This document shows positions 41,361 through 57,686 of a DNA stretch of 64,000 nt, in pieces. Every line of letters starts with the position of its first letter. Position 1 is the stretch's first letter. Both the position numbers and the translations under genes were made by a program. The notes beneath the pieces were generated by a model. It had not been told where the DNA came from. It saw only the letters and a list, made by a program, of their open reading frames with translations, and did not search any database. Source of the DNA: Nigrospora sphaerica (Eukaryota; Ascomycota; Sordariomycetes; Amphisphaeriales; Apiosporaceae); contig JAGVVL010000022.1 in the NCBI GenBank assembly GCA_018287875.1, forward strand, positions 620,001 through 684,000, in the 5' to 3' direction.

Positions 41361-43824
41361 ATGGCACCAGCACGACCTCGCCCCGGACGCCGGCAGGACC
41401 CTGATCATGCCTTCGTGACCCAGTTCATCCAGGAGGAACAGCAAAGCAGCGTCGATGAGCTCCCCAAAGCTCTTACAACAACAGAACACCAGGCACTTCT
41501 GACCCAACTCCAGAGTATAGAGTTCCTCATGCCCAATTGGGCCGAGAAAACCAAGCTCAATATTGCTAGGATACTGGGACAATGGGAACGGTATGATCAC
41601 TTGCCCGAATATCGGCGAACGGACTAACTCTCTAATATTAGTTACTGCAAGGCCCACTGGAACGAATCGGGGGACGTCATGATTCGTCAAGTTTCTCGAG
41701 AAACCGTGATGGGCTTCTTGCATTACCTGTGCGAGGTTTGCAAAATCAAAACCCGGGGTACCTTGTTGGCGTATTTTCGCCACTATAGGCAACTATACAG
41801 CATCATGAATAAACGCCGCATGGACCAGAACGACAGTGGAGAGATACAGAAGGTATGTCGGCGTTTCAGGGCTTTTTCGATCGCTCACCTTAGTTCCAGT
41901 ACTGCGCTACCATACTGGTGCGCCATTTCCAACTACGCCTGTCCAATATGAAGGGAAAGCCGGTCCTCGGCGCGGATGATCTTCTTGTCCTTCAAGCGTT
42001 TAACGTCGCCTACGATACGAGCGTGTTCCCCACCGAGCGCCAGCGTATCCAACTTCTGGGCCTGTACCTTGGCCTGGCGTACACGGGTGCCCGACCGGCC
42101 GAGTTTGTGAACAACGAAAGGCCCAAGCCCAAAGATGGCTCTTGGGAGCACCTCTTCTCCTCTGCCCCAAGGAACCCACCGTGCGACGACGGCGACGATC
42201 AGGCGCCGGATGCAGAATCGAGGATCCTGGAAGATCTCCTTCTCCAGGAAGCCTCCCGGCGCGAGCGCCCGAAAGCGCTGTGCTACGAGGATATCAACCT
42301 CATGGTCGTTCGTCACCCAGAGACGGGCCTCGACGTGCTGGCCATGGCCGTGAAGTTTATCCATCATAAGGGCGCAGATAATAAGCCCAAGCCGTGCGTG
42401 GAGATATCCAGTCTGAGTTCGGTCCCCCTGCTGACGCCATCGCCAGAACAATCTTCTATTTCACGATGACTCGCAAGGTGATCCTCTGCTGGATCACAGT
42501 AATCATCAGTCTGGCACTACATGACCAGGCGTTTGCCGCTTCGAATCTCACCACAGCGGCCAGTGTCTTTCAGGTCCGGAATCGCAGTCCTGTCCAATGT
42601 ACACCCCTTCGCTGGAAGCGAGAATGGCTGAAGCGGCCTATTTTCCGTCGGTTCGAGGGCTCTCGCGTCTTGCCGTGCGAGGCCCTGCCGTATCACAGAC
42701 TTCTAGACGACCTCCAGCGGCAAAGTCTTGACTGTGGATTCGAAACGGCACTCGAGCCAAAGGCCTTCCGGAGGGGTGCTGCGAACTCTGTCAATGGTGG
42801 ATCTCACTATAAAATTTCCCGTGGACACGCCACTAACTTTTGACTAGGCAAGGCACCTGATACTGTTCGGGATCAGATGATGCGTCATGACCCGAAATGG
42901 GCCACCTTTAACAGCGCCTACATTAACGAAAAGGTTCAGTTCGACATTCAGAACGCATTCCTTGAGGAGCCCAGTGAGGACAGCCTAATCAGGCTTTTCA
43001 CGCACGTCAGTTTGTCGCGCGACCCCCGTGCCCGCCGGAACATGGTGCCTGACAATGTCATGGCACATTTGCGATCAAATCCTGAGATCACGGCACTTGA
43101 AGAGAAGCGCAAGGCCCTCAAAGGTGGAGAGCATCGATACCGAGGAAAGGCCAACGAAGAAGCCATTCGCGAACTCACTAGACAGATCAGTGCCAAACGG
43201 GAACGGCATCGCAAGAAAGTTCAAGTGAGGTACCGCCGGCACTACTTTGATAACCGGCCTACATGGGACGTGGAACGGCAAGCCAATGACGAGGACGAGG
43301 ATGAGGAGGACTACAATGGCCCGGCTATTGATCTCCATATTCCCGAGCGGGCACGGTTGGCGGAGATCCTCTGCCGCCAACCTGAAACACAAGACTTCAA
43401 GGCGGCAATGCGACTACATTCACAGGCCTGCGAGCTTATGGTAAAGCTCTGCGAGAAGCGGGAAACCCCCCGACGAGATCACCTACAACGTCATGATGCG
43501 CCGCAACCTGCGACGTCCCAGATCGCTCCGGCGCAGAAGCCATTCCCGTTACTTATGCTGAAGACGCAGTGTCCCCGATGCATCGGCGATAACAGACTTT
43601 CTCGCGAAGAACGAACGTTCGCATACAGCCGGCCCGCTGTGATGAACAACCATTTTGATCGTGCACACCTAGCAGAGATCCAGCAGCTTGCAAAAGATAA
43701 GCTTCTGTTCTGTGAATACTCGCCGTGTTTAGAGCAGGGCGTGAAGTTGGACACCGTGGACGAATATAGGAATCATTGCTACATTGAACACGGGGTCTGG
43801 CTCCGGCCTTCGAAGCAGAATTGA
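41361..43824 (+). CDS. DUF3435 tyrosine recombinase (Starship captain family)
   Basis: Five exons splice into one open frame of about 753 residues. The introns are 41591-41641 (branch ACTAAC), 41853-41899 (acceptor could also be 41893, both in frame), 42394-42446 and 42797-42847. The spliced protein has the DUF3435 core blocks: YTGARPAEFV (Arg near residue 212), FIHHKGADNKPKPTIFYFT, ISLALHDQAFA, LEPKAFRRGAANSVNG (near 420), and RHDPKWATFNSAYINEK with the likely catalytic Tyr near 453. QNAFLEEPSEDSLIRLFTH follows. The C-terminal 110 residues carry two C2H2-like fingers (CPRC...HFDRAH; CEYSPC...HCYIEH). Members of this family move Starship elements as the first 5' gene, transcribed inward. No stop or frameshift remains, so it may be active. 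Ends of an element were not identified. Confidence 0.85.
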
Positions 43825-47892: not shown

Positions 47893-50739
47893 TTAGAAAC
47901 GTGACAAATGAAAGAGATAAACCCGACCGGACGCGCAACCGAGAACGAGGTGCGTGCCCTTCTCAGTAGCGAACACGGTGGACGCGGTCGGCCGATACTC
48001 GGGCGGGAGCCAGAGGACCGGATGCGATTGCTGCTGAATCCAAGCCTCATCGGCACTCAGACCGAAGTCTTCCTGTGGCGGAGGCGCGGGCTTTGACTTT
48101 GGGAGGTACGTATCGTCTTTCATTAGCATCGCTTCGTCGATGGCAATATTGCCCTTGTCGGTGTGGATCCGGGTGCCGGTCGGATCGAACGCGACGGTGG
48201 AGGTGTGGCCGACGTGGTAGGTACGGAGGCATACGCCCGTCTGCGCGTCCCAGAGCCGGACGGTGCGGTCGCCCGACGCCGAGACGACGCGCCGCCCGTC
48301 GGCCGAGAAGGCCGCCGACCAGACGTCTCTAGTATGGCCCTCGAGGACGGCGGCGCACGTGCCGGTCTGCGCGTCCCAGAGCCGGACGGTGTCGTCGTCC
48401 GACGCCGAGACGACGCGCCGCCCGTCGGCCGAGAAGGCCGCCGAGTTGACGTAGGAAGTATGGCCCTCGAGGACGGCGGCGCACGTGCCGGTCTGCGCGT
48501 CCCAGAGCCGGACGGTGTCGTCGTCCGACGCCGAGACGACGCGCCGCCCGTCGGCCGAGAAGACCGCCGACCGGACGGAGGAAGTATGGCCCTCGAGGAC
48601 GGCGGCGCACGTGCCGGTCTGCGCGTCCCAGAGCCGGACGGTGTAGTCGCCCGATGCCGAGACGACGCGCCGCCCGTCGGCCGAGAAGGCCGCCGACCAG
48701 ACCCAGGAAGTATGGCCCTCGAGGACGGCGTCGCACGTGCCGGTCTGCGCGTCCCAGAGCCGGACGGTCTCGTCGTCCGACGCCGAGACGACGCGCCGCC
48801 CGTCCCTCGAGAAAGCCGCCGAGTTGACGTCATCCTTATGGCCCTCGAGGACGGCCTCGCACGCGTTCCATTGCTCCGCTAACTTCGTTTTACACTCCAC
48901 CCACTTTGGTGCCTCGGTTGCAAACAGGCCGCGTAATAGGCTCTGCCTTGGGCTCAGCACGAGTGGTGCCACGTATGTCTGAAGTGGCCGGCTCTCGATG
49001 GCCGGCCAAAAGGTTTGCAGAAGACGGTAGGCGTCTTTCACGAGCGCTTGGAGTCTCGACGCCCCCGGCCGTTCCTTTACACTATTAGCTCTAAAGACAC
49101 CGTGCTAAGGCGTGTAAAGGCGTACCTCTAAATGCCGTAGTAGCCTCTCTAATGCGTGCATTCCCTCTAATATGCTCCGTAGTAGACTTAACGACTCGAT
49201 CCAGTAGAGTCCCTTACGTCGCAGGAACATGTCGACCGCCTCGTACGCTCGTATGCCGTTATCCCTCCCCGGAACTTTGTTAGCGTCGATTAAGTGATTG
49301 GCCCAGTAGACACAGGAGTATCCTATTGCTGCTAATGGATCTGGGTTAGGTGTCCGCCGAGGGACATCCTCGATAGGGATGGCTAGGTCCTGTAATCCGT
49401 AGATGTCGCGTTTCAGTGTCTGTGACATGGCCTCGATCGATTTAAAGAGGATCTGACGGTGGAGGATAGCTTGCTGTTCGGGGAAAAGGATGGCCGATTG
49501 CTCCTTCATTAAGAAGTCCTTCGCCGACTGGTGGACGAAGTAGACCGTCTCCTCGCGCACTGTAAGAAAGGACCCGCAAAGGCGAACCATATCGTGGAGG
49601 GGTTGGATGTTGCTGAGCATGCCTTGCCATTCCTCGATAAAGACGGTCGACTCAGCGAAAGAAAGTGGCCGGTATGTGGTTGCGACCAAAGTCAGGATCC
49701 TATAGCAGAGCGCTGCATACCGCGACGTAGAGATCTGTTCCATCATTCGCTGGTAGAGGGGGCCAAGTCCTGGTGGAAATGATTTCGCTGTTTGCACCGC
49801 TTCCCATTCAAATGCCTTGCTCAGCTCATCGTAGACCAAGGCGACCCAGAGGAAGGTGCCGTTAGCGTTCGACGACAGGTACCGGCGCACTTCTTTGGTG
49901 GTGGTGTCTCGATAGCGCTTGCGTTGTGCAAGGTCAGACACCTTATAGGTGATGTAGCTGTCCACAGCGACTGCGACTGACAGCGCATTGACCTCCAGCG
50001 ACAGCCTGTGCGCCACGTTGCACAGCTGCTCTTCGATCTCTAGCTCGTTGCGGCTCGAGACGAGCCATTTGGCGTGGGTTGATTGCGAGGTCTCGACAAT
50101 TAGCTCAAGGAGCTGGGGTAGGCCACCTATACACTCGTCTAGTGCATCGACCACGAGGGAGACGCCTTGCAGCTTCGGGTCGCGGAGCATCCTAGTGAAG
50201 ATTTCGGAGAGCGCCTGCCATGCGTTAGCATCCTCGAAGAGCGTCTTCCCAGCGGTGTCGTATCTCTTCTTTAGATGGGACATAAGGGACGCGTCTTGGT
50301 CGAGAAGCATGAAGATGAGACCGCGTAGGACAGCCGTCGCGGTGTTAAGGCGCTCGTCGGTGGCTTGGCAGAAGAAGTAGGCGAGGAATTTTCCCTCGGC
50401 CGACGATTTCTCCAGCTCGTCGATGATGCCGCAGAGGAGCATGGTCTTGCCCTTGCCCGGGTCGCCCTTAACCCAGAGCAGCCGCTGGTCCTCATTATCG
50501 CGCCACTGACGGAAGTCAGGGTCGTCGAGCACCCAGACGTACGAGTCCACGCGAAGGCCGCCCTTGGTGTCCTGGATGCGTTTCTTGTCATAGCGGGGGT
50601 CGGTGACGCGCAGGTCGGCGAGGCATCGGTCGGCCGTCTGCTGGATGTTGATGATGTTGCCTTGATGTAAGGTTCCCGACACGTCGTACTGGCCGCCGAA
50701 ATGGGAGCCGTACTGGTTGGCGTGCGTTCCCATGTCCAT
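47893..50739 (-). CDS. NACHT-WD40 NLR receptor 1 (HET-E type), short N-terminus
   Basis: A STAND-class receptor, with NACHT nucleotide switch and WD40 ligand sensor. The first 33 residues hold one amyloid-like motif (GSHFGGQYDV...HQGNIINI, residues 11-32). NACHT follows: Walker A GDPGKGKT (92-99), Walker B VSLVVDALDE, WLVSSRN, and the winged-helix end VYFVHQSAKDFLM. A TAG at about 49111 lies in frame between NACHT and WD40. It falls inside a potential 51-nt phase-0 intron, 49075-49125 (GTACGC...CTAAT...AAAG). Splicing gives one protein of about 931 residues; without it, NACHT (544 residues) and WD40 (382 residues) proteins would be separate. Five near-identical 42-residue WD repeats and a diverged sixth follow. 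A divergent paralogue lies at 52529. Confidence 0.85.
48232..48861 (-). repeat. Five tandem 126-bp WD40 units of NLR1
   Basis: Each unit encodes 42 residues with GH...SAAFS.DGRRVVSAS.D.TVRLWDAQTGT. Differences concentrate at a few positions: the three residues after GH, the one after V, and the residues on either side of the D in SAS-x-D-x. Confidence 0.95.
50644..50709 (-). other. HRAM-like amyloid motif of NLR1 (residues 11-32)
   Basis: GSHFGGQYDV then SGTLHQGNIINI. It aligns with the two C-terminal repeats of the HET protein at 56652-56816 and with the motif of NLR2 by GS-x-[FY], a small residue, [NQ], a central Gly and QGN-x-I. Confidence 0.6.
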
Positions 50740-52528
50740 AATTGGTACTCAAACCATCGTCTGCCACAGATACAGATTTAGCAATTTTTTGAAGCCAACC
50801 CCTTCTAGGGATACACTCACATTCGAACCTAGGAACGCCTCACTGCCGTAATCAACGAAACAAGCGGTGCTCAGTGGCATTACAGAAAAGCCCTTTCTAA
50901 GTAAATGGTGATTCACTCTTAAAAACCGTCCCTGAATATACCTCGATTGAAAAGCCATTTGCGTACAGTTGAGAGACGGTCGCTCTGGACCAAGTTGTAC
51001 CTGCATTGATGACTTAGCGTTAGCTAGGAATGGAACCCATGTGATTGAGCGGGTGACCACGATGCAGCGCCTAGCGGCCGCAAGCCGTCACCCCATCACC
51101 AAGCGCATTCGGTCGATGCACTCCTTGGCTATGAGGACAAGGATGCTCCTATGTGGGCATAGGGTGACGATGCAGGTTAGTGGAATGGCCTTCCGATTGG
51201 CTTTTCCCAGGCCTAGCCATCACAGCAAGCTCGCTTCCGGAGCGTGCCTAGGCCTCGAGTGCGCAATTATCGAGGAAACCAGCACAGCTCACATAGATTC
51301 TCCCTCGTGCGCAAATCCCAGAGTCGTGTTTCCTAAGAGCAAACGTCGGGTCTTACACAATGAGAGCCGTGGAACTTCCCACCCATCTGCTTCTTGGAGT
51401 GACTATTGTAGCTCTACTTGCTGCGTACGTGTACCAGCTGTTTTGGGGGGGCGCATTCCTCACAGTAACAGAGTCTTGGCCCTGATAACACTGAGCCAGC
51501 AACATTTCCCGCGAGTCGATGCTACAGGTGGAAGAGGTCCCTACTGGAACATTGACGACAAATACCGGCCTGGCAACGGTGCCAGACAAACATTCAGTTC
51601 CCCTAGGAGTACACAATTCAAAACTTCGTCTTCAGCAGTACATCGTGTGTGATCCTAGGTTGCCTACCAGAAAGGAAAACGCCATATGCTACTGATAACA
51701 TGACAACTGAGGTCGGTTTCTTAACACAGCGGCTGGTCTTCCCCCGATTTGCTGGGGAGTTGGCTCGCTAAACGTCATCTTGCTGGATGCAATTGAGTTT
51801 ACGGACGGCAGCAAGTTTCCTATTAAACAAGCTTTAGAAATCGAGCCGTCCCAATCGGGTGTGGTAAGCAGTAGCTACGATTGTAGGCGTTCGTGTCATC
51901 CGTCCAAGCTCCCCACAGGCTTCACCCGAGGCACGATTGCTCTGCACCTGGTCAGAATGGACCATGGAGCTTGCTGCTAACTCGCGCGGCAGTATCCGCG
52001 GCTGAGCCTATACGAGTCCACTGTCGCCCTACGCTGGTCGAACTCTATCTCGATGCCAATCGATCAAATTGAGTGCTCACAAGTGGTGAATTGGCATACT
52101 GTCGACGGCAGTACAGTTACTGCTCCCGGACGGTGACAGGATAGCGGCATCTCTGACCTTTGACGACCGAGGCGGGCTCGACGGACTTGGACAAGCATCC
52201 TTGGCCGTAGCACTAACCATCTTCCAAATCTGCATACTTAACCCAGCGTTGATTATGGACCCATCGCATTAGCTTGTCCACTACACCCACTACCATTCGG
52301 GGCTTCTAGTAGTGTCCTAGCGCTGCATTCAGCGAAAAGCCTAACGCCACGGGCGCTTGCCCTTCGCCCAAATCATCCGACCCTCCTACGCCCAGGGTCG
52401 ACGATGCACTCTCTCCTACTCATGACGGTTCTTCATGCAACTTTGATATGCTGAAAATCCCAGTGTGTCTCACAAGTCTTATCTTCACGCAGCACCTAAA
52501 CTAGCATGGTGTTATCCTAACTTAGGAG
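50740..52528. other. Spacer of the NLR inverted pair, shared promoter region
   Basis: A 1.8-kb divergent promoter region between the two NLR genes. Open frames at 50749-51060 (minus) and 50969-51652 (plus) have no recognisable domain. An effector domain for either NLR was looked for and not found. Confidence 0.45.
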
Positions 52529-55500
52529 ATGAGCCCCGAGAAGCGAAAAGGAGAAGACTGCGAAGACACACAAAGGCAAAAGCGGCGCCACGTCACCAGT
52601 CAAGAGATCCATACAGGAGCGGACGAAGCCGACGCTGAGCCATCAAGCTTTTCCCATCAACCGGCGAGACCCGGAAGATTCAGTCAGAGCGGCACCCCAC
52701 ATGGCTCCCATTTCGCTGATGAGCATACGGCGAAATCCATATCCTCCTTTTCCCAGGACGGCTCTCATTACAACGGTCAATTTGACCTGCAACCTGGAGC
52801 GTCTCTCCATCAAGGCAACGTCATAAACATTCAGCAGACAGCCAAACGATGCCTCGCCGACCTACGCGTCACCGACCCCCGCCACGATAAGAAACGCATC
52901 CAGAGCACCAAGGGCGGCCTGCTCTCGGACTGCTACGTCTGGGTGCTCGACAACCCCGAATTTTGCGAATGGCGCGACCACGAGGACCAGCGACTGCTCT
53001 GGGTCAAGGGCGACCCGGGCAAGGGCAAGACCATGCTCCTCTGCGGCATCATCGACGAGCTGGAGAAATCACCGGCCGAAGGAAGGCGCCTCGCCTACTT
53101 CTTCTGCCAAGCCACCGACGGGCGCCTCAACACCGCGACGGCTGTCCTACGCGGTCTTATCTTCATGCTTCTCGACCAAGACGCCTCACTTATGTCACAC
53201 ATGAAGAAGAAATACGACACCGCCGGCAAGGCGCTCTTTGAGGATGCGAACGCGTGGCAGGCGCTCTCCGAGATCTTCACGAACATGCTCCGCGACTCGA
53301 AGCTACAAGGCGTCTACCTTATGGTCGATGCACTAGACGAGTGTGTGGGTGGCCTACCCCAGCTCCTAGAGTTGGTAACAGAGACCTCGCGATCAACCGG
53401 TGCCAAATGGCTTGTTTCGAGCCGGAATCTGCCGCATATCGGGCAGCAGCTGTCCAACGTAGCGCACCGGCTCTCGCTTGAGGTCAATGCGAAGTCGGTC
53501 GCAGCCGCTGTGGATAACTATATCACGCATAAGGTGTCTGACCTTACACGACGTAAGGGCTATCGAGACAACACCACCGAAGATGTACGCCAGTACCTGT
53601 CGTCGAACGCTAACGGCACCTTCCTCTGGGTTGCCTTAGTCTGCCAGGAACTCGAGAAAGGTCGCCGAGGGAATGCATTACAGGAAGTTAAGTCTTTCCC
53701 ATCGGGCCTCGATGCTCTGTATGGACGGATGATGCAGCAAATCCGCGCATCGAAGGACGCCGAGCTTTGTACGCAGGTGCTTGCTCTTATCGCAATAACC
53801 TATCGCCCACCTTCACTCACCGAGTCTACTGCATTCATTAAAGAGCATAAGAGTACGGTAGAAGACACCGAAGAGCTAGAAGAGATTGTCGGTCTTTGCG
53901 GCTCGTTCCTTACGGTCCGCGAGGAGACAGTTTATTTCGTCCACCAGTCGGCGAAGGACTTCTTAATGATGGACCAATCGGCCTTTCTCTCCCCTAAACA
54001 GCAAGAAACCGTCCATGGCCAAATATTCTCGAAGTCGGTCGAGGCCATGTCCCGGACCCTGAAGCGCGACATCTACGGACTACGGGACCCAGGCTTCCCT
54101 ATCGAGGATGTCCATCGGCGGAGATCTAACCCCGATCCATTGGCAGCAATAGGATACTCCTGTGTCTACTGGGCCAATCACTTAATCGATGCTAGCGAGG
54201 CTCCGGGTAGGGACGGCAGCGTACAGAAGTACGAGACAGTGTACAAGTTCTTACGGAGCAAGGGACTCTACTGGATCGAGTCGTTAAGTCTACTACGGAG
54301 CATATTGGAAGGGATGCACGCATTAGAGGGGTTGATACGGCATTTACAGGTACACCTTTACACGCCCTAGCACGGTGTCTTTCGAGCTAATAGTATAAAG
54401 GAACGGCCGAGGGCGTCGAGACTTCAAGCGCTCGTGAAAGACGCCTGCCGTCTTCTGCAAACCTTTTGGCCGGCCATCGAGAGCCGGCCGCTTCAGGCGT
54501 ACGCCGCACCACTCGTGCTGAGCCCAAGGCAGAGCATAATGCGAGACCTCTTCAAGCACGAGGCACCGCGATGGGTGGAGTGTAAAACGAAGTTGGCGGA
54601 GCAATGGAGCGCGTGCGAGGCCGTCCTCGAGGGCCATACGAGTTGGGTCACTTCGGCGGCCTTCTCGGCGGACGGGCGGCGTATCGTCTCGGCATCGGGC
54701 GATAAGACCGTCCGGCTCTGGGACGCGCAGACCGGCACGTGCGACGCCGTCCTCGAGGGCCATACTGATGACGTCACTTCGGCGGCCTTCTCGGCGGACG
54801 GGCGGCGCATCGTCTCAGCGTCGGACGACCAGACCGTCCGGCTCTGGGACGCGCAGACCGGCACGTGCGACGCCGCCCTCGAGGGCCATACTTCTTTAGT
54901 CACTTCGGCGGCCTTCTCGGCGGACGGGCGGTGCGTCGTCTCGGCGTCGGACGACAAGACCGTCCGGCTCTGGGACGCGCAGACCGGCACGTGCGCCGCC
55001 GTCCTCGACGGCCATACGGATTGGGTTACTTCGGCGGCCTTCTCGGCGGACGGGCGGCGCGTCGTCTCGGCGTCGTGGGACAAGACCGTCCGGCTCTGGG
55101 ACGCGCAGACCGGCACGTGCGACGCCGTCCTCGACGGCCATACGAGTAGCGTCACTTCGGCGGCCTTCTCGGCGGACGGGCGGCGCATCGTCTCGGCGTC
55201 GCGCGACCAGACCGTCCGGCTCTGGAACGCGCAGACCGGCACGTGCGACGCCGTCCTTGAGGGCCATACTTCTTTAGTCACTTCGGCGGCCTTCTCGGCG
55301 GACGGGCGGCGCGTCGTCTCGGCGTCGGACGACCAGACCGTCCGGCTCTGGGACGCGCAGACCGGCATAGGCCTTCGTACCTACCACGTCGGCCACAGCT
55401 CCACCGTCGCGTTCGATCCAACCGGCACCCAGATCCACACCGACAAGGGCGATATTCGCATCGACGAAGCTATGCCGGTGGAAGAGGATACGTACCTCCC

Positions 55501-55717
55501 ACAATCAACGCCCGCGCCTGCGCCACAAGAAAACTTTGGTCTAAGTGCCGATGGGGCTTGGATTCAGCGGCAATCGCATCCGGTCCTCTGGCTCCCTCCC
55601 GAGTACCAGCCAATAGAGTCCGCCGTGTTCGCGACCGAACGGGGCACGCATCTCGTTCTCGGTTGCTCGTCCGGTCGGGTCTATCTCTTTCATTGTCACA
55701 TTCCTAACACTTCGTAA
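52529..55717 (+). CDS. NACHT-WD40 NLR receptor 2 (HET-E type)
   Basis: The better preserved receptor. Residues 1-77 are polar, with a bipartite nuclear-signal-like KRKGEDCEDTQRQKRRH. Residues 78-101 form the amyloid-like motif (GSHYNGQFDLQ...HQGNVINI). NACHT has Walker A GDPGKGKT (161-168), Walker B LMVDALDECVGG, KWLVSSRN, and VREETVYFVHQSAKDFLM. As in NLR1, an in-frame TAG (about 54368) follows LYTP. It lies in a potential phase-0 intron of 51 nt, 54350-54400 (donor GTACAC, branch GCTAAT, acceptor AAAG). Splicing yields about 1045 residues. The WD40 part then has six 42-residue units and a diverged seventh, ending in a conserved tail (VLWLPPEYQP...VYLFH). Expected role: ligand sensing by WD40, oligomerisation by NACHT, and templating of a partner effector through the N-terminal motif. 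Confidence 0.85.
52760..52831 (+). other. HRAM-like amyloid motif of NLR2 (residues 78-101)
   Basis: GSHYNGQFDLQ then PGASLHQGNVINI. Position directly before NACHT and match to the HET protein repeats are as for NLR1. Confidence 0.6.
54614..55369 (+). repeat. Six tandem 126-bp WD40 units of NLR2
   Basis: Exactly six 126-bp units from the TGC codon at 54614 to 55369, highly alike. Variable positions are the same as in NLR1. After the conserved Val, NLR2 has Thr in every unit, whereas NLR1 has Asn, Trp or Arg. Confidence 0.95.
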
Positions 55718-56060
55718 AGGGCTTTTAAGCTCTCGTCTTTTCTTATCTCTATAGAAAGGAGGGTCCCAGGTGGCGGCACAAATTTATACGCTTCGCACTG
55801 TTGTAGCGGAATCTTCGAGAACAAGTTTTATCGACGAATCGTTACGAATAGATAGCTCGTCTTCTATACGAACGAATGCGACCGTAGTTCGTGGAAGACA
55901 CCTATTAGTTATGATGGGTCTTCCGACGATAGTGCACAGCCGACAACATGCTACCTGCCGTCATTGCTACCTACTGGCATTGCCACCGCTAGCATAGCTA
56001 GAACCTTCCGTTACACGGAGCGACGCTGGAAGATACGTTTAGGATGCGGGATTAGCAGGG

Positions 56061-56624
56061 TAGGCAGCCTACGTCAGCCTGCCGGAGCTAACAGCGGTTC
56101 TATTAGTCGTTGGTGCTATGCGGTACTGAAAGCCCTGATTACATGTATGCATTGAGACGTGGCGGGACACGTCTTCATTGTCTCCTTTTAATATTCACGG
56201 AAGCCTTTCCACTACCTTGTGTAGGTACTCGTACAGAGCTCCTGCTAGGGGGAGTAGTAGACACAGTGCCGTTGGCCGGTAGGAGGGGTAGCCCGGCAGA
56301 TAGGGTGCGGGGCAGGGCGAGCCTATCCAATCCTATCCGAAGGCCAACGTGTTAGGGCAGACGGGACACTCTAGCGACGGAGTTATCGAGGTATAGGGTG
56401 ATGGGTCGTCCCTGCTACAGGCATAAGCGCATGACAGCTCGCCAGCTATGGGATATACCTAGAGTTCATGCATTAGCTTGTGGCTCTATTTTCCCCAAAA
56501 TGTGATGGTTTCCCCGGCCTATCTATCATCCAGTAAACCTAAAGATTTCATCTAGACGAAGATCTTACAGGTCTCCTGTAACGATGTCATCGCGCTCCCG
56601 CTACCAAGTGGCCAGAGCACCCGC
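56061..56624. other. Intergenic, nothing recognised
   Basis: Separates the convergent ends of NLR2 and the HET gene. No gene was recognised. Confidence 0.4.
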
Positions 56625-57686
56625 TTACTCCATAGTAGCTGTCTTCGCGTCGATTTGGTTGCCCTGCAACGCCTGAGCTCTGCCTCCCGCATTCACGTTT
56701 CCACTGAATTCCGATCCCTCTTGCACTATGTCGCCCTGGGTAACGCCTCTTATCTTGTTGCCTTGATCGGACGACGCGTTGCCAGTCAAAGTGATGTTGC
56801 TCTGAAATTTGGAGCCCCCTTGTCTTATGCGGAGACTTGCGGGCCTGACTGACTGGAAACCATCGTCTTCGTGTAATGCTGGGGAAATTAGCAAGTGAAA
56901 TACGAAGAGAGAAGCTAACTTGCCATTGCGTATTTTGGAACGGCTTTGAGCGCGTTTGTCAATTTCGTCCTGGAGTCGGATGAACGCGTTCTGCTCCCCT
57001 TCGCCGTAGATTAACGGCAGGTAGATGTCGAAGATCCCGAGCAAGGAGTAGACCCGGTCTTCTGCACGTTTGGTTCTCCGCTCTCCTCTCCAGGAAAGTC
57101 GCTCCTCCACGCTGAAGGTTGGTAAAGACCCCCCTCGAAGTGCGTCGATCGAGATCCCCGTGATCTCATACAGAGGCGTCTCGAGCGACGCCTTATCGCC
57201 CAGTTTCTGGCCGTTCTCTGAGAAGAAGATGACTGACTTCGGGGCGATCAGCTCTTGAAGCGTCCACCCACGGGTAAACCATCGGCTTTCCCGGAAGGCC
57301 GCATCCCAAGGTATGCCAGGCTTCCCCTTCCTCTCGCTAGTACCCACTGAAACGTCAGATAGGTAGACGTAGCACTGAACAGCGTTCTGATACCAGCGAA
57401 ACATCGAGTTGATGGCTTCCGACAGCTCCGTGCTGTTCGACTTGTCGATGCAGCACGTGTCGACCCAGAAGTACTGTAAGCCGTCCGCGGCCGCTTGCTG
57501 GCCGCAGAACGTAAGCTTCCTGTACCCCTCCTTGTGCTGGCCTGTATGGTGTTGGATGTCCTGGAAGGTGACTTCCTGGTGATCGGTCCCCCACGTGTGG
57601 GAAAGAATGGCGTATGGCGGGATCCCGTCGATGAGATCCTCCGTCAGGCTCAGGCCCCCCTCGCGCTGAAGCTGTAGGAGGCGCAT
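56625..57686 (-). CDS. HET-domain protein with C-terminal tandem amyloid-like repeats
   Basis: A 353-residue putative cell-death effector of vegetative incompatibility. The HET domain (residues 1-240) has PPYAILSHTWG, EVTFQDI, YFWVDTCCIDKSNSTELSEAI, WYQNAVQCYVYLSDV, WFTRGWTLQELIAP and AEDRVYSLLGIFDI. After a short linker the last 63 residues hold two repeats, 291-312 (GSKFQSNITLTG...QGNKI) and 324-345 (GSEFSGNVNAGG...QGNQI), 11 residues apart. This resembles the two-repeat prion domain of HET-s, and the repeats match the single motif of the neighbouring NLRs. A 75-nt in-frame intron (56845-56919, donor GTTAGC, acceptor GTCAG) may be spliced from the linker; a tempting 41-nt alternative would destroy the tail frame. 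The start is the first ATG (MRLLQLQREGG, typical of HET proteins). Convergent with NLR2, about 0.9 kb away. Confidence 0.85.
   Translation of the reverse strand: MRLLQLQREGGLSLTEDLIDGIPPYAILSHTWGTDHQEVTFQDIQHHTGQHKEGYRKLTFCGQQAAADGLQYFWVDTCCIDKSNSTELSEAINSMFRWYQNAVQCYVYLSDVSVGTSERKGKPGIPWDAAFRESRWFTRGWTLQELIAPKSVIFFSENGQKLGDKASLETPLYEITGISIDALRGGSLPTFSVEERLSWRGERRTKRAEDRVYSLLGIFDIYLPLIYGEGEQNAFIRLQDEIDKRAQSRSKIRNGKLASLFVFHLLISPALHEDDGFQSVRPASLRIRQGGSKFQSNITLTGNASSDQGNKIRGVTQGDIVQEGSEFSGNVNAGGRAQALQGNQIDAKTATME
56652..56816 (-). other. Two HRAM-like amyloid repeats of the HET protein
   Basis: R1 spans 56751-56816 and R2 56652-56717. Each is 22 residues: GS-x-F, a Ser/Gly, Asn, a hydrophobic, then Gly at the middle, Ala, and QGN-x-I at the end. 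A Gly/Asn/Gln-rich strand-turn pattern fits beta-solenoid amyloids such as HET-s. Confidence 0.6.

Follow-up and report, generated by a model that had tools for sequence, protein, structure and literature searches.

A 64,000-nucleotide stretch of the Nigrospora sphaerica genome (hereafter the window; C13:620001-684000, where C13 is our label for contig JAGVVL010000022.1) carries a HET-domain gene beside two NACHT-WD40 genes encoding NOD-like receptors (NLRs), and all three encode versions of one short motif. Our analysis of the whole genome (51.6 Mb, 33 contigs) makes it quite probable that a HET-NACHT-WD40 receptor was split into a receptor and an effector, which are reconnected by an HRAM-like motif, probably via amyloid templating. 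The HET and NLR proteins are likely an in-trans signalling pair, as indicated by the gene layout, the linkage, the motif homology, the recurrence within the genome, the apparent split, the substitutions in the HET tail, and a second gene class carrying the motif. New here are the kinship of the HET domain to HETs fused to NACHT, the substitution pattern of the tail, the hydrolase-like genes with the motif, and a broadly colinear cluster on contig C33.

Effector and receptor genes

The effector gene (56625-57686, minus strand) is an open reading frame (ORF) of 353 amino acids. Its HET domain is matched by PF06985 with 54.9 bits, above the curated cut-off of 22.5, over profile positions 1-90 of 146 (residues 25-113; 57348-57614, minus strand). 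At least 138 PF06985 matches (E ≤ 0.001) are present genome-wide. The protein ends in two 22-residue repeats, R1 (GSKFQSNITLTGNASSDQGNKI; 56751-56816) and R2 (GSEFSGNVNAGGRAQALQGNQI; 56652-56717), both on the minus strand and both resting on alignment, shuffles and background windows. A possible 45-nucleotide in-frame GC-AG intron lies at the junction of HET and tail (56879-56923, minus strand), where a branch-point-like TGCTAAT and an AG resemble, by eye, the HET-NACHT spacer of fused paralogues; the ORF is also open unspliced.

NLR A (47893-50739, minus strand) consists of the ORFs 49105-50739 and 47893-49041 with a putative 51-nucleotide intron (49125-49075), and reads r0-NACHT-WD40, r0 being our name for the receptor copy of the motif. 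NLR B (52529-55717, plus strand; putative 51-nucleotide intron 54350-54400) has the same order behind an extended N-terminus. Both match NPHP3_N/NACHT, and in each the WD40 ORF follows the putative intron (introns placed by eye). The r0 of NLR A (GSHFGGQYDVSGTLHQGNII; 50650-50709, minus strand), placed by motif alignment, has 20 residues, and that of NLR B (GSHYNGQFDLQPGASLHQGNVI; 52760-52825, plus strand) has 22 and aligns gap-free with R1 and R2. The WD40 arrays comprise five 42-residue repeats with a mean identity of 85% in NLR A (48235-48863, minus strand) and six with 86% in NLR B (54612-55367, plus strand), with variation confined to a few positions. The N-terminal extension of NLR B (52529-52760) is charged, is common to locus L021 and partly to L033 (L0nn denotes retrieved loci), and includes a second GSHF-like stretch (52703-52756) ahead of r0.

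The initial annotation had reported the doubled tail motif and a single copy ahead of NACHT in each NLR, and both are confirmed. Its alignment of all four copies holds for R1, R2 and the r0 of NLR B, each of 22 residues, and has to allow for an r0 of NLR A that is two residues shorter. It had also placed receptor and effector within 10 kb of each other; the 3' ends of HET and NLR B are in fact 0.9 kb apart. The layout is that of an in-trans pair, with NLRs that have one motif and no N-terminal effector domain, and a neighbouring effector with a doubled C-terminal motif. Homology between receptor and effector motifs is seen in the shuffles, the background windows and hhalign, and is borderline or absent in HMMER and in single-sequence searches.

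Relatives in the genome and a probable origin by splitting

A single-sequence search found the HET tail at five places in the genome, including the window. The copy at C33:130.7 kb is 99% identical and has an intact HET. At C18:1116.3 kb (L011, 1116179-1116607; 94%) the HET is deleted, and the start and the tail remain, the latter in an open frame. The copy at C16:1198.3 kb (L012, 1196944-1198521; 84%) is decayed, with several stops and two mutually similar inserts, and adjoins an r0 NLR with an open NACHT frame of 547 amino acids. The fifth place, C33:137.4 kb (L013, 137444-137626, minus strand; 41%), holds a divergent double motif between two r0 NLRs. The pair recurs within the genome, as duplicated segments.

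A NACHT query gave 37 genome matches, of which 30 loci were retrieved and form the basis of the following counts. HET lies directly upstream of NACHT at 13 loci (three identical copies, one decayed), r0 stands in place of HET at nine (L014-L021, L033), and eight have neither. One of the r0 loci, L021 (C18:354 kb), has a separate HET fragment 1.3 kb upstream, and across 31 residues its r0 stretch shows no difference from that of NLR B. Compared with 11 of the 13 HETs upstream of NACHTs (one identical copy and the decayed one were omitted), the window HET has identities of 67.6-78.8%, versus 22.7-27.9% with the eight best-scoring other HETs among the at least 138 matches. In the NACHT tree (25 rows: 8 r0, 11 HET-fused and 6 other; L021 was omitted as too short), seven of the eight r0 NLRs form one clade (99/100), joined by L029, which has neither r0 nor HET. 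This clade is nested among the HET-fused NACHTs (outer fork 86/93, not starred), and the eighth r0 NLR, L033, is a long branch placed elsewhere.

The HET kinship, the locus counts and the NACHT tree together give the pattern expected from the split of a HET-NACHT-WD40 gene, and the window HET and NLRs are apparently such a split receptor. Most fused genes have intron-like DNA between their HET and NACHT ORFs, and its end, TGCTAAT ... AG, resembles the DNA at this place in the HET-tail gene. This intron-like DNA may have served as the joint in the HET-tail gene. Linkage extends beyond the window: of the eight effector loci with the motif, six have one of the nine r0 NLRs within 10 kb, against 0.02 expected, an analytic value for locus positions rounded to 10-1000 bases and for copies that are not independent, duplicates inflating the count.

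Motif resemblance

R1 and R2 were scored as the mean against the eight r0 copies and compared with composition-preserving shuffles, 5000 each. Shuffled R1 reached the observed score twice (z 5.3), and shuffled R2 never did (z 6.2). The background consisted of 182,836 28-mers from six-frame ORFs of approximately 250 kb, after the exclusion of 591 windows that had ten letters in common with a motif of r0 or effector type, and none scored as high as R1 or R2. Among the four double-motif repeats scored in this way, three were unreached, and the first repeat of the divergent C33 copy was reached by 455 of the 182,836 windows. Aligning the r0 profile to the effector-motif profile with hhalign gave a probability of 75% (P 2.6e-5). 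Judged by these scores, the resemblance between the r0 and HET-tail motifs exceeds composition, and plain chance or composition as its cause was rejected on the shuffles and the background windows. The initial annotation had made its case depend on similarity between NLR and HET motifs at the level of hidden Markov models (HMMs); this is upheld by the profile-profile comparison, shuffles and background windows, and is borderline or absent in HMMER (E 0.026-30).

Motif class

Whether the motif belongs to a described HRAM class had been left open in that annotation. When the eight r0 and five effector repeats are aligned, the Gly of QGN is invariant and the following Asn is also kept. HRAMs have an invariant Gly as well, numbered 19 in PMC4518210 and 17 in PMC5485727 (papers are cited by PMC number, for the portions of their text available to us). 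Of the HRAM hydrophobic positions 5, 8, 10, 16 and 18, compared by eye, 8 and 10 are kept (with Ala at 10 in R2), and the first hydrophobic residue stands at 4 rather than 5. Position 16 is S in R1, A in R2 and L in the r0 of NLR B. Position 18 is Q, preceding the key Gly, and a Q ahead of Gly is a trait given for HRAM4 (PMC4518210). The HRAM preference for Arg or Lys at 15 has no counterpart in R1 (S) or R2 (Q), and Arg is found at this position solely in the second repeat of the divergent C33 copy.

By its residue pattern the motif is HRAM-like and not an HRAM, because Gly, Asn and the HRAM4-like Q are kept, but the first hydrophobic residue is shifted, the positive charge is absent, and the Pfam families are unmatched. 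A Pfam HET-s match is itself a weak test, since PF11558 matched just 38 of 155 double-motif proteins (PMC4518210). With two deviating positions and no Pfam match, membership of a described class is not established. HRAMs have been described on HeLo, HeLo-like, sesA and PNP_UDP effectors (PMC4518210, PMC9815663).

Substitutions in the HET tail

Six substitutions, all at third positions and five of them synonymous (non-synonymous rate, dN, 0.006; synonymous rate, dS, 0.118), separate the 68-codon tails of the two intact copies, on C13 and C33. In the HET part, 20 differences are synonymous and 16 are non-synonymous, and codons 244-262 have three and one, respectively. Codons 263-285, immediately ahead of the tail, have six differences, none of them synonymous. 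Since the tail substitutions are nearly all synonymous, the comparison, small as its numbers are, shows this to be the reading frame of the tail and suggests that the tail is kept, a pattern that fits purifying selection.

Hydrolase-like genes with the same motif

An r0 HMM run over the retrieved loci found one further motif (E 1.7e-5), ending a 57-amino-acid ORF at C18:806.9 kb (806908-807006, plus strand), approximately 4 kb beyond where the r0 NLR L020 ends. Searching the genome with this motif retrieved two more copies, at C13:182457-182558 (minus strand; no r0 NLR within 480 kb) and C1:2715701-2715781 (plus strand; 7 kb from the r0 NLR L033), as well as the r0 of L020 at E 0.01. Each of these genes (L048, L049, L050) ends in a single motif copy, and two of the three have an r0 NLR no more than 7.5 kb away. 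GHSLGG-type and FFGVP stretches are found upstream of the motif. GHSLGG is altered in the C13 and C1 copies, the C1 motif is without the Gly that is invariant in the aligned r0 and effector repeats, and both copies may be decayed. From the GHSLGG-type and FFGVP stretches we tentatively take these genes to encode SesB-like hydrolases. Pfam gave no confirmation of this, with no DUF676 (PF05057) match at the hydrolase-like loci and no relevant match on the two open pieces of the C18 copy.

A HeLo effector for the r0 motif was also considered and rejected. A HeLo domain and a PF11558-like tail lie over two frames at C18:809284-809886 (plus strand; L045, L046), roughly 10 kb from an r0 NLR. Judged by its domains this is a HET-S-like locus in the same genome, and it bears its own PF11558-like tail. 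Separately, five places have a HeLo match approximately 0.5 kb behind a HET match and in the same orientation: C16:2770753-2772063 (plus strand), C2:32981-34317, C16:2817186-2818522, C17:9408-10512 and C18:8942-10047. Four of these share the same HET score, one of them lying 9 kb from the contig start. At C16:2770 kb the two matches are in the same phase, each reporting a 521-amino-acid open frame, and two death domains may thus be joined within one protein.

Counter-evidence and alternative explanations

A number of results weigh against a functional split-receptor pair. At the level of single searches, an r0-only HMM gave the HET-tail repeats just 2.8-6.1 bits (E 2.7-30). The best untrained hits of an effector-motif HMM on 6214 ORFs were the r0 of an NLR B paralogue (E 0.026) and that of NLR B (E 0.071), both borderline; the r0 of L019 and L020 were at noise level (5.2-5.5 bits), and the remaining r0 copies were not among the best 30 of the 6214 ORFs. 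When the whole genome was searched with single sequences, namely the HET tail, the r0 of L019, the r0 of NLR B and repeat two of the divergent C33 copy, there was no cross-match between HET tail and receptor at E ≤ 10. The Pfam HET-s_218-289 and HET-S families did not match these genes. The tail-bearing HET exists in just two intact copies, two more being decayed or without HET, and no recognisable effector domain lies upstream of the double motif of L013. The pairs on C13, C33 and C16 go back to duplication of one segment, so that their recurrence represents a single event that was copied. In the C18 relic, where HET is missing, nine tail bases are changed relative to the window, and five of these changes are non-synonymous. 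The r0 copies give a mixed picture, with dN above dS in two of eight pairs, and uniform purifying selection on the NLR r0 was rejected on this ground.

To these results belong the structure predictions. The best AlphaFold2 (AF2) model of the tail, from four sequences, has a predicted local distance difference test (pLDDT) of 57.7 and a predicted template modelling score (pTM) of 0.30, the other four models reaching a pLDDT of 34.7-40.0, and Foldseek and VIA-align found no match of note in the PDB. The full-length HET model has a pLDDT of 50.0, with the tail below 50, and Foldseek returned only non-significant rows for it, including a deoxyribosyltransferase and a plant TIR domain; the search gave no significant structural support for a TIR likeness of HET. 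PDB sequence searches with the tail and the HET alignment gave nothing better than E 0.2, and a megablast against phages, without a match, was uninformative. On the other side, the modelled tail has strands at 12-14, 18-25, 30-33 and 36-40, then at 45-47, 51-58, 63-66 and 69-73. The strand starts 12, 18, 30 and 36 repeat exactly 33 residues on, the period needed by a two-layer solenoid. The beta-solenoid check proposed in the initial annotation yielded two like four-strand repeats in a model of low confidence, and the amyloid fold is therefore drawn from the motif pattern and the literature.

Three other explanations have to be weighed against the split-receptor pair. The HMMER values of HET-tail repeats against r0 (E 0.026-30) would fit a chance likeness between the Gly/Asn/Gln-rich tails of adjacent genes. 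This is largely excluded, and we regard it as highly improbable, given two and none of 5000 shuffles, none of the 182,836 background windows reaching R1 or R2, and co-location of six loci where 0.02 were expected. The motif could instead be a relic without present function, if, on the breakage of a HET-NACHT gene or its recombination with an r0 NLR, a piece of linker with the motif came to lie behind HET and was duplicated. Such an origin would agree with the decay or loss of HET in two of the four HET-type copies, with the drifting tail of the C18 relic (five of nine changes non-synonymous), and with the mobile-element genes adjoining the duplicated segment. However, five of the six substitutions in the intact-copy tail are synonymous while all six in codons 263-285 are non-synonymous, and the motif is found again on hydrolase-like genes near r0 NLRs. 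We consider the relic improbable.

The motifs might also be a docking or co-assembly element that is not amyloid, HET being recruited in trans by a finite beta-structured or other contact without prion-like conversion. The same comparative facts (locus counts, tail substitutions, HET kinship and background windows) fit this explanation too, as do the low-confidence AF2 tail without a PDB match and the putative status of the amyloid fold. It is nevertheless unlikely in our view, as the Gly/Asn/Gln-rich composition, the length of 22 residues, the one-versus-two copies, the conserved G and N, and the repeated strands resemble described amyloid motifs.

Proposed mechanism and implications

According to the split-receptor reading, a two-gene immune or cell-death module would have arisen when a HET-NACHT-WD40 receptor was split. 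In this module NLR B, and NLR A probably too, would sense a ligand through the WD40 propeller, and the ligand-bound NLR would oligomerise via NACHT. The r0 motifs, now clustered, would then fold into an amyloid-like beta-solenoid and act as a template on which both tandem motifs of the HET tail fold likewise. This would bring HET domains together and switch on a TIR-like killing activity. We infer all of these steps, namely ligand sensing, oligomerisation, amyloid fold, templating, HET activation and cell death. The HET domain is described as TIR-like in the literature (PMC9815663), which would set the effector apart from HET-S, a pore former.

If true, a HET activated by a separable 22-residue motif would permit triggering at will and testing in isolation. 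The fused and split versions of a receptor would be seen together in one genome, and fungi would have a counterpart to the bacterial amyloid-motif TIR proteins. A wider formulation must be regarded as doubtful: a TIR-like HET killer under amyloid-type NLR control via a split receptor, with a motif class of its own, near the described HRAM families and yet outside them, that serves two unrelated effectors, as a double copy on HET and a single copy on a hydrolase-like protein, and all of it set on a DUF3435-bearing, possibly Starship-like mobile segment.

Genomic setting and mobility

The C33 cluster is broadly colinear with the window, with HET, NLRs and flanks in the same order. The divergent double motif is present in C33 only, and the NACHT parts look exchanged, L016 being nearest to NLR A and L015 to NLR B. 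Similarity to the window ends at base 41914 for both C33 and the C18 relic, just upstream of a DUF3435 gene (PF11917; 41975-43446, plus strand). This gene, matched in two pieces with one in-frame stop, lies at the edge of the C33-colinear region and faces the cluster. Further DUF3435 copies are found at the cluster edge on C33 (146566-148010, minus strand), likewise facing the cluster, and at the cluster edge on C18 (1114299-1115741, minus strand); there is none near the C16 pair. PF11917 is the captain family of Starships (PMC12134995). The arrangement suggests that the cluster sits on a mobile or formerly mobile segment, and it suggests rather than establishes this, since the DUF3435 copies are 68-69% alike and their matches contain in-frame stops.

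Retroelement ORFs occupy another part of the window (11996-39731; eight ORFs tested). They include RVT_2 with neighbouring gag_pre-integrs, a LINE-like RVT_1 with endonuclease and RNase H, and an ORF with reverse transcriptase, RNase H and integrase.

Comparison with known systems

Both HNWD receptors and in-trans amyloid pairs are on record (PMC3321046). In the 2012 screen reported there, HET was chosen as a candidate and no HET/STAND pair was found, and HET does not figure in the available text among the hits that the motifs gave in PSI-BLAST; a HET/NLR pair would fill this gap. PF06985 is among the 19 effector families of PMC9815663, whose text, as available, names no HET pair; its supplementary tables could hold one. 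A HET pair of this kind is not mentioned in the available text of the 2017-2025 reviews PMC5485727, PMC7889193, PMC10197012 and PMC12881547, nor in that of PMC4986451, PMC12258605 and PMC12261475, and searches of the openly licensed literature, as far as its text was available, found no HET/NLR pair with an amyloid motif.

Several other motif systems share individual traits with the pair. In the PP-motif (HELLP, SBP) and sigma-motif (SESA, SESB) systems a single motif class is likewise found on more than one effector type, SBP and SESB being lipase-like (PMC5485727), but the motif sequences are different, and here HET is among the effectors. The HRAM-like motif of NLR12 is also carried by an enzymatic effector, there as a single copy on PNP_UDP (PMC9815663) and here as a double copy on HET. 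Bacterial BASS motifs include an NLR-associated amyloid motif on a TIR-domain protein (PMC7889193). They differ in being bacterial and of other motif families, and HET is merely a remote relative of TIR.

The HNWD receptors HET-E, HET-D and HET-R share the module order and the strong conservation of the WD40 repeats. They are, however, single polypeptides, whereas here HET and NACHT-WD40 are separate genes, each with the motif. The parallel drawn in the initial annotation was with the HET-S/NWD2 system. This system is that of Podospora anserina, with an HRAM1 motif. As in that system, an HNWD-family NACHT-WD40 receptor without effector domain has one N-terminal motif and is accompanied by a neighbouring effector with two C-terminal copies (PMC3321046, PMC4518210). 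The one-to-two layout, the linkage and the motif homology bear the parallel out, and amyloid templating remains its inferred part. The two systems differ in the effector, which is HET here and HeLo in Podospora, in the Q that replaces a hydrophobic residue before the key Gly, in the motif, which is unmatched by the Pfam HET-s families, and in the amyloid fold, which for the Nigrospora pair is a prediction.

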